Assembly (NCBI RefSeq): GCF_037201815.1
Contig: NZ_CP147407.1
Location: 3,914,723-3,978,722, forward strand
DNA: 64,000 bases
Origin: Metabacillus sp. FJAT-52054
Lineage (GTDB): Bacteria > Bacillota > Bacilli > Bacillales > Bacillaceae
Direction of reading: 5' to 3'
Made by a program: the position numbers and the translations under genes. Of this stretch, positions 5,089 to 51,250 are shown piece after piece (within the stretch, counting starts at the first letter, position 1; each line of letters begins with the position of its first letter). The notes below the pieces were generated by a model. That model saw only the letters and a list, made by a program, of their open reading frames with translations, had not been told where the DNA came from and ran no database searches.

Positions 5089-6072
5089 TTAGTAGCCTTT
5101 TGGATTCTTTAAAAACCAGTTCCATGCACTCTCAATGATGGTGTGCAGATCTGCATATTTCGGCTTCCAGCCAAGCTCCTGAATCGCTTTTTCAGAGGAC
5201 GCCACAAGTCTTGCTGGATCTCCTGCCCGTCTTGGAGCAACCTCTGCCGGTATCGGATGGCCTGTTACCACGCGAGCCACATCGATGACTTCCTTCACGG
5301 AAAAACCATTCCCATTTCCGAGATTATACGTACCGCTCACAGGCTGTTTTCTTAAAGAATCAAGGGCGAGCAAATGAGCGTCAGCAAGATCGGTCACATG
5401 AATGTAGTCTCTAATGCATGTACCGTCCGGTGTAGCATAGTCATCTCCGAAAATCATGATTTTCTCGCGCTGCCCAAGCGCTACTTGAAGAATAATCGGA
5501 ATGAGGTGCGTTTCCGGCTGATGGTCTTCGCCAAGCTTTCCATCCATATGGGCACCCGCAACATTAAAGTAGCGAAGAACCATGTAATTTAATCCGTAAG
5601 CCTGCTCGGACCACTTCAGCATTTTTTCAATCGCAAGCTTCGTTTCTCCATACGGATTCGTCGGTTCCGTCGGCTCGGTTTCCTGTATCGGAATATTTTT
5701 CGCCTCTCCGTAAGCTGCTGCTGTAGAAGAGAAAACAATCTTTTTCACGCCAAATTCCTTCATAACCTTTAAAAGGGACAAAGCTCCATACACATTGTTA
5801 TCGTAATATTTCAAAGGGTCCTCAACGCTTTCTCCAACTAAAGAGTCCGCTGCAAAGTGCATAACTGCCTCAATTTCATTCTCTTCAAAAAGATTTCTTA
5901 AAAACGCTTCATCTCTCAAATCGCCTGTATAAAGCTTCGCACCGTCTAAAACCGCTTCAATGTGCCCTTTTTGCAGACTGTCTGCCACGATCACCTTTTC
6001 CCCGCGATCCAGCAGCTCTGACACTGCATGGCTTCCAATGTAACCCGCTCCGCCGCAAACTAAAATCGACAT
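5089..6072 (-). CDS. galE: UDP-glucose 4-epimerase
   Basis: A 327-residue extended SDR enzyme interconverting UDP-galactose and UDP-glucose with bound NAD. Visible features: the Rossmann motif GGAGYIG at 7-13, SSTAAAYG near 115-122 and the catalytic YGETK (Tyr141, Lys145), then an RYFNVAGA block and the C-terminal nucleotide-sugar part. Length is typical (325-340). AAGGAGGAAG precedes the ATG. Being inside the gal operon it recycles the UDP-galactose made by GalT. It may also supply UDP-galactose to surface polymers. Confidence 0.96.
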
Positions 6073-6084
6073 GTCTCTTCCTCC

Positions 6085-7257
6085 TTAAATATGAATAATT
6101 TCTCTTGCTCCATCTCCAACTTCAACTACATAGAACTCTGGGGTAAGCCCCGTTTCTTTTTTATAGACAGCGCCTGCCTCTGAGATAAACGTCTGGACAG
6201 CTGATTTCTGAACAATGCTGACGGTGCAGCCGCCGAATCCTGCTCCGGTCATTCTGGAGCCGATTACACCCGGCAGTTTCCATGCGATTTCGACCATGGC
6301 ATCGAGTTCTTTCCCGGTTACTTCGTAGTCATCCCTTAAAGACAGATGGGAATCATTCATTAATTGTCCGAATCCCTCTTCATCGCCAGCATGGAGCTTC
6401 TTAACTGCCTGTAATGTACGAATGTTTTCAAGCACCGCATGTTTTGCTCTTTTGCGGTCTGTTTCGTTTTCAATGAGATGCTGATTTTCTTCAAATTCTT
6501 CTGCTGTTAAGTCTCCAAGTGAATGGATATCAAGCTTAGTTTGCAGATTTTTCAGTGCACGCTCGCACTCTGACCGGCGCTCATTGTATTTAGAATCTGC
6601 CAGTGTTCTTCGTTTCCCTGTATTGGAAATCACGAGAACAGAATCCTTCAGCTCAAGCGGGCTGTACTGATATTCAAGAGTCTGGCAGTTTAGCAGAACC
6701 GCCGAGTCCTTTCTGCCCATGCCGATCGCGAACTGGTCCATAATGCCGCAGCTGACTCCGATAAATTCATTTTCTGCATGCTGACTCATTTTGACAAGCT
6801 CTAATCGATCAATCGATGATCTTGTCAGCTCGTTTATCATGACAGCAGAAGCAAGTTCGATGGAAGCAGAGGAGGAAAGGCCTGCACCATTCGGGATGTT
6901 GCCGAAAAACAGAACATCCAGTCCATGAATCAGCCGGATTCCCTTCAGGCTGAACTCCTTCAGGACTCCTTTCGGATAGTTCGCCCAATCATGCTCTTCC
7001 TTATATAGGAGGTCATCCGCCTGAAATTCAATCATGCCTTTATCTTCAAAGTTCATGGAATAGAGACGCATCATCTGATCACTTCTCTCTCTAACCAAGC
7101 AATACGTCCCTACATTAAGCGCACAGGGAAAAACATGACCGCCATTATAATCCGTATGTTCACCTATTAAATTCACTCTTCCTGGAGCAAAGAAAATTCT
7201 TGGTTCTGTACCTTTGCCGAATACTTCATTAAATTGATTAATTAACTGTGTATGCAT
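6085..7257 (-). CDS. galK: Galactokinase
   Basis: A 390-residue GHMP kinase making galactose-1-phosphate from ATP and galactose. It has the galactokinase signature GRVNLIGEHTDYNGG at 26-40, the ATP-binding PNGAGLSSSAS near 122-132, the catalytic Asp174 in CGIMDQFA and GSRMTGAGFGG at 333-343. It is the promoter-proximal gene of the galK-galE-galT-bga operon. A clean sigma-A promoter and a cre-like palindrome lie just upstream, with an AraC-family gene diverging. GGTGGGTGA is the probable ribosome-binding site. Confidence 0.97.
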   Translation of the reverse strand: MHTQLINQFNEVFGKGTEPRIFFAPGRVNLIGEHTDYNGGHVFPCALNVGTYCLVRERSDQMMRLYSMNFEDKGMIEFQADDLLYKEEHDWANYPKGVLKEFSLKGIRLIHGLDVLFFGNIPNGAGLSSSASIELASAVMINELTRSSIDRLELVKMSQHAENEFIGVSCGIMDQFAIGMGRKDSAVLLNCQTLEYQYSPLELKDSVLVISNTGKRRTLADSKYNERRSECERALKNLQTKLDIHSLGDLTAEEFEENQHLIENETDRKRAKHAVLENIRTLQAVKKLHAGDEEGFGQLMNDSHLSLRDDYEVTGKELDAMVEIAWKLPGVIGSRMTGAGFGGCTVSIVQKSAVQTFISEAGAVYKKETGLTPEFYVVEVGDGAREIIHI

Positions 7258-13211: not shown

Positions 13212-13251
13212 TTTGGATGTGTAGCGGGGTGAATTATGGTGAGGATAGGGA

Positions 13252-13398
13252 TGCTTGGCATTGTGCTTTTTCCGGTTGATGCCTGGCATTGTGCTTTTTA
13301 TCCCTGTGTTGCCTGGGATTTCGGTTTTGCCTGGCATTGCGGTTTTGCCTGGCATTCTTGCCTGGGATTGGAGTCTTTTTACGGTGCTGCCTGGGATT
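13252..13398. repeat. TGCCTGGCAT array A downstream of pdxK
   Basis: Seven copies of a TGCCTGG(C/G)AT core start at 13252 (degenerate), 13280, 13310, 13328, 13346, 13359 and 13388; spacings are 28, 30, 18, 18, 13 and 29 bases. TGCCTGGCA is itself an odd palindrome. The array begins just past the pdxK terminator; one more isolated copy sits at about 14085. A regular version of the same element is at 28194-28399. No open frame here looks coding. Confidence 0.8.
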
Positions 13399-13546
13399 AA
13401 TATGACGGATTTATGATCGAAAGTCACATATATTGGTTTGAAACTGCTACAATGGCTAGTCAACGTAGCTCAGATAAGAAAATTTGGTGCTAGAATCGGG
13501 ATGAATTGGGTTATTTCGGTACGCAGTTGGGGGGCAGCTAATGAGA

Positions 13547-13686
13547 TATCGGCTATTCTGAGCGGATATCGACCGAAATTTAAATATATCGGCGATTATT
13601 TCAATATATCGGCGAAAATTTTAATATATCGACGATTATTTCGATATATCGACGAAAATAAGCGGATATCGACTTTTCGGGAGGAT
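13547..13686. repeat. 20-bp periodic TATCG array 1
   Basis: Seven TATCG(A/G)C cores start at 13547, 13567, 13587, 13607, 13627, 13647 and 13667, an exact 20-base period. Between cores the sequence is A/T-rich (GATTATTTC, GAAAATTTT). An eighth degenerate unit (GATACG) follows near 13685. Units such as TATCGGCTATT and TATCGACCGAAAT recur, on the opposite strand, in the array at 50926-51250. Confidence 0.85.
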
Positions 13687-19568: not shown

Positions 19569-19859
19569 ATGGATGTGTTCGTGGTTTATCTTTTCATCGC
19601 GACAGCAACTCCTTTATTTCTCTGGCCTGAACGAAAGAGATTAGCAATCATCCATATTCCATTTATTGTTGGAATGTGGGCTTACTTTCTCCTCTATCTC
19701 AGCGGAAGCTTAAATTTCATCGACCACTACGTCCTCAATATGATCTTCGTCGGCAATGTCGTATTTGCCCATATCGCAGCATTCCTAATTTATGCCTTCC
19801 CAATCATTAAGCGTGAGCATGAGAAGAAACACGCTCCAAAATCACCAATCATTGAATAA
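19569..19859 (+). CDS. ywcE: Spore morphogenesis/germination membrane protein YwcE
   Basis: A 96-residue protein with three membrane helices (about 4-22, 28-50 and 60-80) and a charged tail KREHEKKHAPKS. Start MDVFVVYLFIATATPLFLW, size and holin-like topology match B. subtilis YwcE, reported to act in spore morphogenesis and germination. As in B. subtilis it sits beside the qox operon, supporting the assignment. AAGGAGG gives a strong start. Confidence 0.85.
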   Translation: MDVFVVYLFIATATPLFLWPERKRLAIIHIPFIVGMWAYFLLYLSGSLNFIDHYVLNMIFVGNVVFAHIAAFLIYAFPIIKREHEKKHAPKSPIIE

Positions 19860-19860
19860 G

Positions 19861-19890
19861 CCTTGCATCGAACGCGGTGCAGGGTTTTTT
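19861..19890 (+). terminator. Terminator of ywcE
   Basis: CCTTGCATC pairs with GCGGTGCAGGG (9 bp with G-U pairs), followed by T6, directly after the stop codon. Confidence 0.8.
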
Positions 19891-19944
19891 CTTGTTTTAG
19901 GCTGCTGCAGATTCACTTTTACTCTGTAATCGGGCGTTGAGGAT

Positions 19945-20565
19945 TATCACGGACACTCCTGGGTGGATATCAGACATTCTTGTCATGATATCACCCGGCC
20001 CGCTCCGGATATCGGACACTTTGTCTCATTTATCGGACGTTCTCGCTTTTATCGGACACTCTTGAATGGATATCAGACATTCAAGTACGGATATCGCCCG
20101 CTCCGCTCCGGATATCGGACACTTCCCCTCATTTATCGGACGTTCTCGCTTTTATCGGACACTCTTGTCAGGGTATCGCCCGCTCCGCTCCGGATATCGG
20201 ACACTTTGCCTCATTTATCGGACGTTCTCGGTTTTATCGGACATCCCTGGATGGATATCGGACACTCTTGTCAGGATATCGCCCGCTCCGCTCCGGATAT
20301 CGGACACTTTGCCTCATTTATCGGACGTTCTCGCTTTTATCGGACACTCCTGGGTGGATATCGGACATTCTTGTCAGGATATCGCCCGCTCCGCTCCGGA
20401 TATCGGACACTTTGCCTCATTTATCGGACGTTCTCGGTTTTATCGGACATCCCTGGATGGATATCGGACACTCTTGTCAGGATATCGCCCGCCCACTCCG
20501 GATATCGGACACTTTACTTACTTTATCGGACACTCACGCTTTTATCGGTATCGGACATTTGCGAT
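19945..20565. repeat. 30-copy periodic TATCGGAC array 2 with a 103-bp higher-order unit
   Basis: TATC cores start at 19945, 19968, 19989, 20010, 20031, 20050, 20071, 20092, 20113, 20134, 20153 and so on to 20543. The spacing pattern is 21-21-21-21-19, repeating as a 103-bp unit (one unit is 82 bp, lacking one monomer). Most cores read TATCGGACA or TATCGCCCG. Five successive units from about 20100 are almost identical. All three plus-strand frames stay open across it because the monomer has no stop; none has a ribosome-binding site. The array fills the gap between the convergent ywcE and qoxD terminators. Confidence 0.92.
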
Positions 20566-20603: not shown

Positions 20604-20650
20604 ACAAAAAACCGGTAAGCGATGCCCCATCTGGGATAGCGATTACCGGT
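20604..20650 (-). terminator. Terminator of the qox operon
   Basis: ACCGGTAA (20611-20618) pairs with TTACCGGT (20643-20650). An inner GATGCC/GGGATAGC pairing and an A-rich tract at 20601-20610 give T-rich RNA on the minus strand after qoxD. Confidence 0.8.
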
Positions 20651-20660
20651 TTACTATTGT

Positions 20661-21047
20661 TTATTTACCTTCATGTTCTCCATGTTCACCATGAGAAGGC
20701 GGGTTTTTCTGATGTTCTGAGTGACCGCCATGCGATCCCATTACCCAAACTGTTCCAGCTACGATTACAATCGCAATGAATGCTGCAAACACAGTATTGA
20801 GGGTTTGAATCCATCCGCTGCTGCTCTCTGTCATATGCATGAACATAAGCAGCTGAAGTGCAGCCTGGAAGAAAGCAAAAACGAAAATGATGATCAGGAT
20901 AGTGGTATCAGAGAATCCTGATGCTAAGCCTACCCACAGAGCGAGCAATGTTAAAACGATGGATAATGCAAAACCAATGACATTGCTCCATGGGAATTTA
21001 TCATGAGATGAATGTGTGTTATGAGATGTTTGAGTATTTCCAGCCAT
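20661..21047 (-). CDS. qoxD: Cytochrome aa3-600 quinol oxidase subunit IV
   Basis: A 128-residue protein with three membrane helices (about 20-42, 48-68 and 82-104), containing LQLLMFMHMTESSSGW, typical of subunit IV, and a His-rich C-terminal tail (GSHGGHSEHQKNPPSHGEHGEH). It is the last gene of qoxABCD. It stabilises the oxidase and has no cofactors. Its ATG lies one base past the qoxC stop. Confidence 0.93.
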   Translation of the reverse strand: MAGNTQTSHNTHSSHDKFPWSNVIGFALSIVLTLLALWVGLASGFSDTTILIIIFVFAFFQAALQLLMFMHMTESSSGWIQTLNTVFAAFIAIVIVAGTVWVMGSHGGHSEHQKNPPSHGEHGEHEGK

Positions 21048-28193: not shown

Positions 28194-28399
28194 CGCTTGG
28201 CATCACACTCCTTTTCCACCTTTGCCTGGCATTCTTGCCTGGCATCACACGCTTTTCCATCTTTGCCTGGCATTCTTGCCTGGCATCACACCCCTTTTCC
28301 ATCTTAGCCTGGCATTCTTGCCTGGCATCACACCACTTTTTCATTTTGCCTGGCATTCTTGCCTCGCATCGCACCCCTTTTCCCACATTGCCTGGCATC
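28194..28399. repeat. TGCCTGGCAT array B, 41-42 bp period
   Basis: Cores start at 28194 (degenerate), 28223, 28236, 28264, 28277, 28306, 28319, 28347, 28360 and 28389: alternating spacings of 13 and 28-29 bases, so each 41-42 bp unit carries two cores (…GGCATTC, then …GGCATCACAC) and a pyrimidine-rich CCTTTTCCATCT. It fills the gap between two convergent terminators. Frames running through it on either strand encode only repetitive peptides without ribosome-binding sites. Confidence 0.9.
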
Positions 28400-50868: not shown

Positions 50869-50925
50869 GTGCATATACGGTTCGCCCGTTCGCTTCGGGT
50901 GGGGGTCGAATTCAGTCGAAAAATC

Positions 50926-51250
50926 GATATATTGTTATTTTCGTTGATATATTCGTATTTTCGTCGATATAATTCTATTTTCGTCGATAAACTCATTTTT
51001 CCGTCGATATTTTCGATTTTTCGTTGATATATCCAATCAATAGCCGATATATCTTATTTCGGTCGATATACTCAATTAATAGCCGATAAATCCTTATTTC
51101 GGTCGATATAATCAATTAATAGCCGATAAATCCTTATTTCGGTCGATATAATCAATTAATAGCCGATATATTGTTATTTCGGTCGATATATCCAATTAAT
51201 AGCCGATAAATCCTTATTTCGATCGATATATCCCAATTAGCCGGCGATTT
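50926..51250. repeat. 20-bp periodic GATA array 3
   Basis: GATA cores (TATC on the minus strand) start at 50926, 50946, 50966, 50986, 51006, 51026, 51046, 51065, 51085, 51105, 51125, 51145, 51165, 51185, 51205 and 51225, with a GATT at 51246: a 20-base period with one 19. From 51046 the units alternate (AGCCGATA then GGTCGATA), a 40-bp higher-order unit. Minus-strand units TATCGGCTATT and TATCGACCGAAAT also occur in array 1. The array occupies the gap between convergent genes; nothing else was seen in 50869-51307. Confidence 0.92.

Follow-up and report, generated by a model that had tools for sequence, protein, structure and literature searches.

What is the regular series of TATC words that lies between the convergent genes ywcE and qoxD in the genome of Metabacillus sp. 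FJAT-52054 (G000), and what keeps it regular? We analysed this series, array H, within a window of 64 kb (C1:3914723-3978722), to which plain coordinates refer below. Array H (19947..20559, plus strand) is made of about 30 TATCGGAC-type monomers in 103-bp units of five (21-21-21-21-19). Its 29 exact TATC words form one chain from 19968 to 20543 with spacings of 19, 20 or 21 bp (the first words at 19968, 19989, 20010, 20031 and 20050, the last two at 20524 and 20543), and the 30th core, TCAC at 19947, is degenerate, leftmost and in register; the longest chain in 2000 dinucleotide-preserving shuffles of the 621 bp was 4. The core positions bear out the thirty copies, the spacing and the 103-bp blocks of the preliminary description, including the one block (20153..20235, plus strand, by core positions) that has lost a single 21-bp monomer and measures 82 instead of 103 bp. 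There is one 20-bp spacing, at 20483-20503. TRF recovered the 103-bp period, and lag analysis ranked 103 above 82 above 21. At its right end the array breaks off in a truncated monomer, TATCGG followed by TATCGGACATT (20543..20565, plus strand), and the truncation is identical in strain G103.

Of 80 genomes in the family, 79 have an orthologue of the left neighbour, ywcE (19569..19859, plus strand), which ends 86 bp before the array; qoxD (20661..21047, minus strand) has its 3′ end 96 bp from it. A hairpin with a T-run 3′ of ywcE (CCTTGCATCGAACGCGGTGCAGGGTTTTTT, 19862..19893, plus strand) and an inverted repeat with A/T runs on either side (AACCGGTAAGCGATGCCCCA...TGGGATAGCGATTACCGGTT, 20606..20656, minus strand) were read by eye as the terminators of ywcE and qoxD, respectively. 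Array H sits inside these two terminator-like hairpins, in the intergenic place originally given for it.

Nor is the locus a single curiosity: it belongs to a genome-wide family and to an order-wide class with many cores. Our census of the G000 genome consisted of pattern searches and sampled stretches rather than every base. A six-core pattern at 21-21-21-21-19 matched 184 times, with no match in the reversed control, and the matches group into nine loci of 10-85 monomers and up to 1.7 kb, all in the same register (A 59, B 54, C and D 43-44 each, E 85, F 60, G 47, H 29-30 and I 10 monomers). Among the 421 spacings in these arrays, 332 are of 21 bp, 83 of 19 bp, three of 20 bp and one of 22 bp, while the remaining two are doubled and correspond to a monomer with a damaged core; exactly five monomers separate consecutive 19-mers in 62 of 73 intervals. 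Homology of monomer types between the arrays is weak (p 0.014); the 103-bp unit therefore probably has a single ancestry, the trace of which is nearly erased. Eight of the nine arrays, all except C, are oriented against the direction of replication (p 0.04), a count made in G000 only and on the assumption that, as in B. subtilis, position 1 of the chromosome record is the origin; this is too weak for a rule of strict orientation to replication.

Outside the nine arrays we found no TATCGGAC clusters in a 400-kb sample of G000, and single TATCGGAC-type cores occur 11 times versus 13.6 expected. Since the core is neither enriched nor avoided there, an ordinary promoter role is unlikely. The same count bears on the idea of a restriction-modification or defence decoy, with the cores as recognition sites of a modification system. 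Such a decoy would suit the shortness of the cores, their mostly asymmetric and species-specific sequences and their common orientation in each array, but the lack of avoidance in the rest of the genome and of any phage or plasmid match makes it scarcely credible. An origin from a plasmid or phage was rejected, as the plasmid and phage collections gave no match, and so were plasmid iterons, given that the flanking genes are ywcE and qoxD with no initiator and that the plasmid collection holds no similar sequence.

The arrays are helically phased. In all nine, phase coherence is high, with R 0.86-0.95 at 10.3 bp per turn and 0.87-0.95 at 10.28-10.31, and at 10.5 bp per turn it falls to 0.03-0.20 in eight arrays and is 0.72 in the short array I. 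The earlier suggestion of two turns of B-DNA per step, with all cores on one face, is therefore right as to phasing but holds only on average and at an effective repeat of 10.3 rather than 10.5; at 10.5 bp per turn the sites would share one face only within a five-monomer unit, and each following unit would be turned by about 70 degrees. The 19-bp monomer, one in five, may be a phase correction that would hold the sites in step with a helix of 10.3 bp per turn. Other array families are coherent at 10.0 (20-bp units), 10.2, 10.26 or 10.5 (21-bp units) bp per turn; in another genus (G030, G100), arrays of the unrelated core TATCTTCGATT mix 21- and 19-bp monomers and have their best repeat at 10.26. 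With pitches of 20.0, 20.4, 20.6 and 21.0 bp by family, no one fixed helical repeat is kept: the rule is two turns per unit, and the exact pitch is a family trait.

Each monomer combines a spacer of 9-10 bp with a core, TATCGGACA(C/T)TC, that is conserved, most strongly in TATCG and C8. When the consensus monomers of the individual arrays are compared, 1.5-1.9 bits of information fall on each of positions 1-6, 8 and 11, as against about 0-0.3 bits at positions 13-19; spacer identity between different arrays is at chance (0.37 versus 0.36 expected from base composition). Though the spacer sequence has been replaced, spacer length is unchanged in all 45 consensus monomers; neutral divergence on that scale would be expected to leave numerous short indels. 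Within arrays, heterozygosity is 0.020 at positions 1-8 versus 0.114 at positions 12-21, and between G000 and strain G103 there are 4 substitutions in 508 core positions versus 41 in 517 at spacer positions 13-21 (Fisher p 5e-9). Core variation is five to ten times below spacer variation, both within arrays and between strains, and these contrasts point more strongly than any other result to a core that is read by something.

The explanation that we favour, tentatively and at somewhat less than an even chance, is that the array is satellite DNA made of putative binding sites, with core and helical spacing maintained by a protein on one side of the helix. The protein that we infer would be sequence-specific, bind each core and assemble side by side at two helical turns per step, and the length of the spacer would matter while its sequence would not. 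Alternatively, the arrays could be neutral satellites produced by slippage or unequal exchange under a mechanical two-turn preference, with no protein that reads the cores. We consider this unlikely: it would have to account for the low variation of the cores relative to the spacers and for a register kept in nine arrays despite saturated spacers.

Comparison of relatives shows how the arrays change. In G103 (‘Bacillus sp. SJS’, same species) array H is present and runs off the ends of two contigs, and array G differs from that of G000 by one 21-bp monomer. The G103 draft assembly breaks inside these arrays (contigs C12, C15, C18, C20 and C23), so short-read genomes may under-report the class. 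In the sister species G001, with flanks about 82-99% identical to those of G000, locus H holds a single five-monomer unit versus about six units in G000. The repeat at this place is therefore real in independent assemblies. At other orthologous loci G001 has about eight monomers (A), about five (C) or remnants (B and D), and loci E, F and I have no array there; since these three are wholly absent, the arrays are not essential in G001. Locus H is also without an array in the more distant Metabacillus mangrovi (G003) and G002. Conversely, TATCGACA arrays are expanded in G001 and are short and degenerate at the corresponding places in G000. The turnover is like that of satellite DNA, in that small units are retained while each species expands its own. 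The satellite-like growth proposed at the outset holds in that whole monomers and five-monomer blocks are gained and lost, probably through recombination or slippage.

Turnover of this kind also suits a self-amplifying core, whereby a nickase, recombinase or transposase-like enzyme would read the core and duplicate about two helical turns. Only intact monomers would be copied, and the cores would stay intact with no need for a benefit to the cell. We judge this reading, too, to be unlikely, although it explains core conservation without host benefit. Conservation extends monomer by monomer through up to 85 copies, where selection on a single site should be weak, and turnover is fast, with one unit or none in G001 versus hundreds of base pairs in G000 and with arrays of its own in G001. 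On the other hand, the length of the spacer is kept with the same strictness as the core, a constraint that mere copying would not impose, and we found no hairpins, no target-site duplications and no candidate gene. TnpB was one candidate, its target rule being TTTAT-like, but G000, G001 and most of the genomes rich in arrays lack it. The notion that a constant TTTAT prefix with a variable continuation reflects an RNA-guided target (TnpB/TAM) was dropped for this absence from most carriers.

The arrays might instead act as RNA, in 3′ untranslated regions, or encode a repeat peptide. Array A begins 7 bp behind a stop codon, and in most arrays core-strand stop codons are fewer than in shuffles. 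However, fold z-scores range from -0.6 to +1.8 on both strands, core-strand stops fall in all three frames (A, B, C, E, F and G) or in two of three (D, H and I), the unit of 103 bp is not divisible by three, and an exact two-turn spacing is meaningless for single-stranded RNA; such a role is very improbable. A coding peptide was discarded on account of the stops and the unit length, and an RNA element was rejected given the absence of a fold and of any Rfam match in the 64-kb window. As a separate observation, arrays A, B, D, F and H (stretches L085, L086, L088 and L090 and the window) have about half or less of the core-strand stops of spacer shuffles, with frames summed, and the arrays are not coding. 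Action at the level of DNA rather than RNA is likely because there is no fold, the two-turn spacing is rigid and the arrays occur in both orientations relative to genes.

The window holds two further arrays of the class, one with core ATATCGACGA and a 20-bp unit (13545..13675, plus strand) and one with core GTCGATATA, a 20-bp unit and 40/80-bp higher order (50923..51233, plus strand). In the family, we sampled random stretches of ten genomes (1.5 Mb in total) for four or more similar 10-mers in a chain that lies outside genes. We found 20 non-coding arrays at a unit length of 20 bp and 19 at 21 bp, two sets that mostly coincide because neighbouring centres overlap; this sample had at most one array at each unit length from 12 to 18 bp, none with units of 23-38 bp, and a smaller group at 40-42 bp, which is a hairpin repeat. 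Two of the ten genomes had no array at all. Some 15 different cores are present, among them GTCGATATA, GGCTGGAAA, TTTATGATGAA, TTTATTTTCG, TTTATTTGC, TTTGGCCGGAT, TATCCGCGATT and TATCAGTCTAA. That many unrelated cores have only the 20-21 bp unit in common is a point for the neutral account, which explains a common unit length across unrelated cores, as do the gains and losses of whole monomers and whole blocks seen among relatives. Yet about half of the cores in this unbiased sample contain TTTAT, and a series of five TTATC words in 21-bp steps was matched in 83 of the 299 genomes, and in 49 of the 117 genera, of the order with few reversed-control matches (the search asked for the TTATC prefix, and coding repeats were left in, so that some matches may be coding); such recurrence speaks against neutrality.

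Five-monomer TATCGGACAAT arrays were found in G300, which belongs to another family. In one stretch of that genome (L237:5500-5980) the TATCGGACAAT array and an adjoining terminator-like hairpin are duplicated together as a unit of about 168 bp, and in another (L238:1-475 and 5856-6245) ATTTGC(G/A/T)TC recurs at exactly 20 bp in long arrays of about 20 copies. In each of two species (L109:14939-15208 in G000, L137:7313-7829 in G002), arrays of core GGCTGGAAA or GGCGGGAAAA are built of five-monomer higher-order units of 102 bp, with four 21-bp monomers and one of 18 bp.

With genes called by open reading frame only, 23 of the non-coding arrays lie in tandem, 12 in convergent and three in divergent gaps, as compared to 406, 128 and 169 of the other gaps of at least 120 bp. 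Divergent, promoter-only gaps are avoided (3 of 38 arrays versus 169 of 703 other gaps, p 0.018), and the excess in convergent gaps is marginal (p 0.053).

Two other repeat classes were met alongside. One has 41-42 bp units split 13+28, with cores TGCCTGGCA or GTCTGAC; in both families the core is a palindrome around a central T, and neighbours can pair into a hairpin with a T-T mismatch (window 28198-28398 and 13250-13356; L131:16457-17070; L115:1362-2386; L122:11796-12089). The other is a GC-rich 123-bp tandem element that starts with GAAAAGCGGA.GGCGCTT, is rich in GCGCC-type inverted repeats and has no shorter internal period; it is common to three species (L121:14001-14440 in G000, L134:15828-16209 in G001, L149:17030-17420 in G002).

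Several known systems resemble the arrays in part. LytTR regulators such as AgrA and ComE occupy one helical face at direct repeats of 9 bp that are spaced by about 21 bp; unlike the arrays here, their sites are two repeats at promoters rather than long arrays, and LytTR genes are present in 43 of 43 genomes tested, with or without arrays, so that their presence is uninformative. The core of the DnaA box is TTATNCACA, and a DnaA-box cluster is ruled out by cores that read TTATCGGACA or GATATCGGACA, with the CACA half missing. REP/BIME elements are likewise intergenic, clustered and often behind gene ends, but REPs are palindromic hairpins, whereas the monomers here are direct repeats without hairpin potential, as the fold z-scores on both strands attest; we rejected this identity. 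Spacers that recur every fifth monomer within an array rule out a CRISPR array. Eukaryotic higher-order satellite DNA shares with our arrays the nesting of monomers, homogenisation within an array, differences between arrays and fast species turnover; here, in contrast, the arrays are short (up to 1.7 kb) and lie between bacterial genes, and the monomer follows the helical repeat, not the nucleosome.

Staphylococcal STAR elements likewise repeat a conserved core in direct orientation between genes, with spacers that differ from locus to locus; their loci differ per species, their copy number grows and shrinks, and their function and dispersal are not known (PMC3532100). Their one core is a GC-rich 14-mer, T(G/A/T)TGTTG(G/T)GGCCC(C/A); spacers measure 40 bp or more, units are about 50 bp long and copies are few, and no helical phasing or higher-order unit has been described for them (PMC3532100). 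The arrays here have 20-21 bp units, cores that differ between species and up to 85 monomers, and array H in particular, with core TATCGGAC and spacers of 9-13 bp, is not a STAR element.

A survey of prokaryotic satellites defines these, in its main text, by at least four regular tandem units of 10-200 bp, a non-coding nature and copy changes by whole units (PMC6749651). Array H has 29-30 monomers and the nine arrays 10-85; the 103-bp unit, core-strand stops in every array and the convergent-gene gap mark it as non-coding; and G001 has one unit to about six in G000, next to the 21-bp difference in array G. By the main text of the survey, non-coding families are rare, those named being only from Leptospira interrogans and Methanocella conradii with repeats of 37-69 bp, and are put down to replication anomalies, which favours the neutral account (PMC6749651). 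They resemble our arrays as tandem non-coding repeats in families dispersed over the chromosome, but that main text holds no 20-21 bp phased class and no such Bacillales family (PMC6749651). In the literature accessible to us we found no account of a phased class with 20-21 bp units in Bacillales, and the class appears undescribed. The claim that no bacterial element of this form had been described stands only for the combination of features; intergenic direct-repeat arrays as such are already known from STAR elements and prokaryotic satellites.

The binding-site reading, which we continue to prefer, draws on the register and phase coherence of the nine arrays, the contrast between core and spacer, the mixture of 21- and 19-bp monomers around TATCTTCGATT, the concentration of non-coding arrays at 20-21 bp, the lack of RNA structure and the avoidance of divergent gaps. 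Against it, many unrelated cores, several per genome, would call for several proteins or for a shifting specificity; the pitch differs between families; the core is no commoner or rarer than expected outside the arrays; and G001 manages without some of the arrays. Core-dependent amplification and a neutral two-turn bias are strong rivals, and a mixture is possible. If a protein does coat the arrays, these, mostly behind gene ends, might serve as boundary or anchoring sites in the chromosome. Rather doubtful is a principle common to the Bacillales: species-specific cores, often starting with TTATC, repeated every two turns in phase over more than 1 kb as a chromatin-like fibre, with a protein that would co-evolve with them much as centromere proteins do with eukaryotic satellites. 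If the favoured reading is right, many spore-forming bacteria would carry helically phased satellite DNA that has been overlooked partly through breaks in short-read assemblies. The arrays would then offer a bacterial model for satellite turnover and for the co-evolution of repeats with DNA-binding proteins, and would point to a protein that coats intergenic DNA in register.
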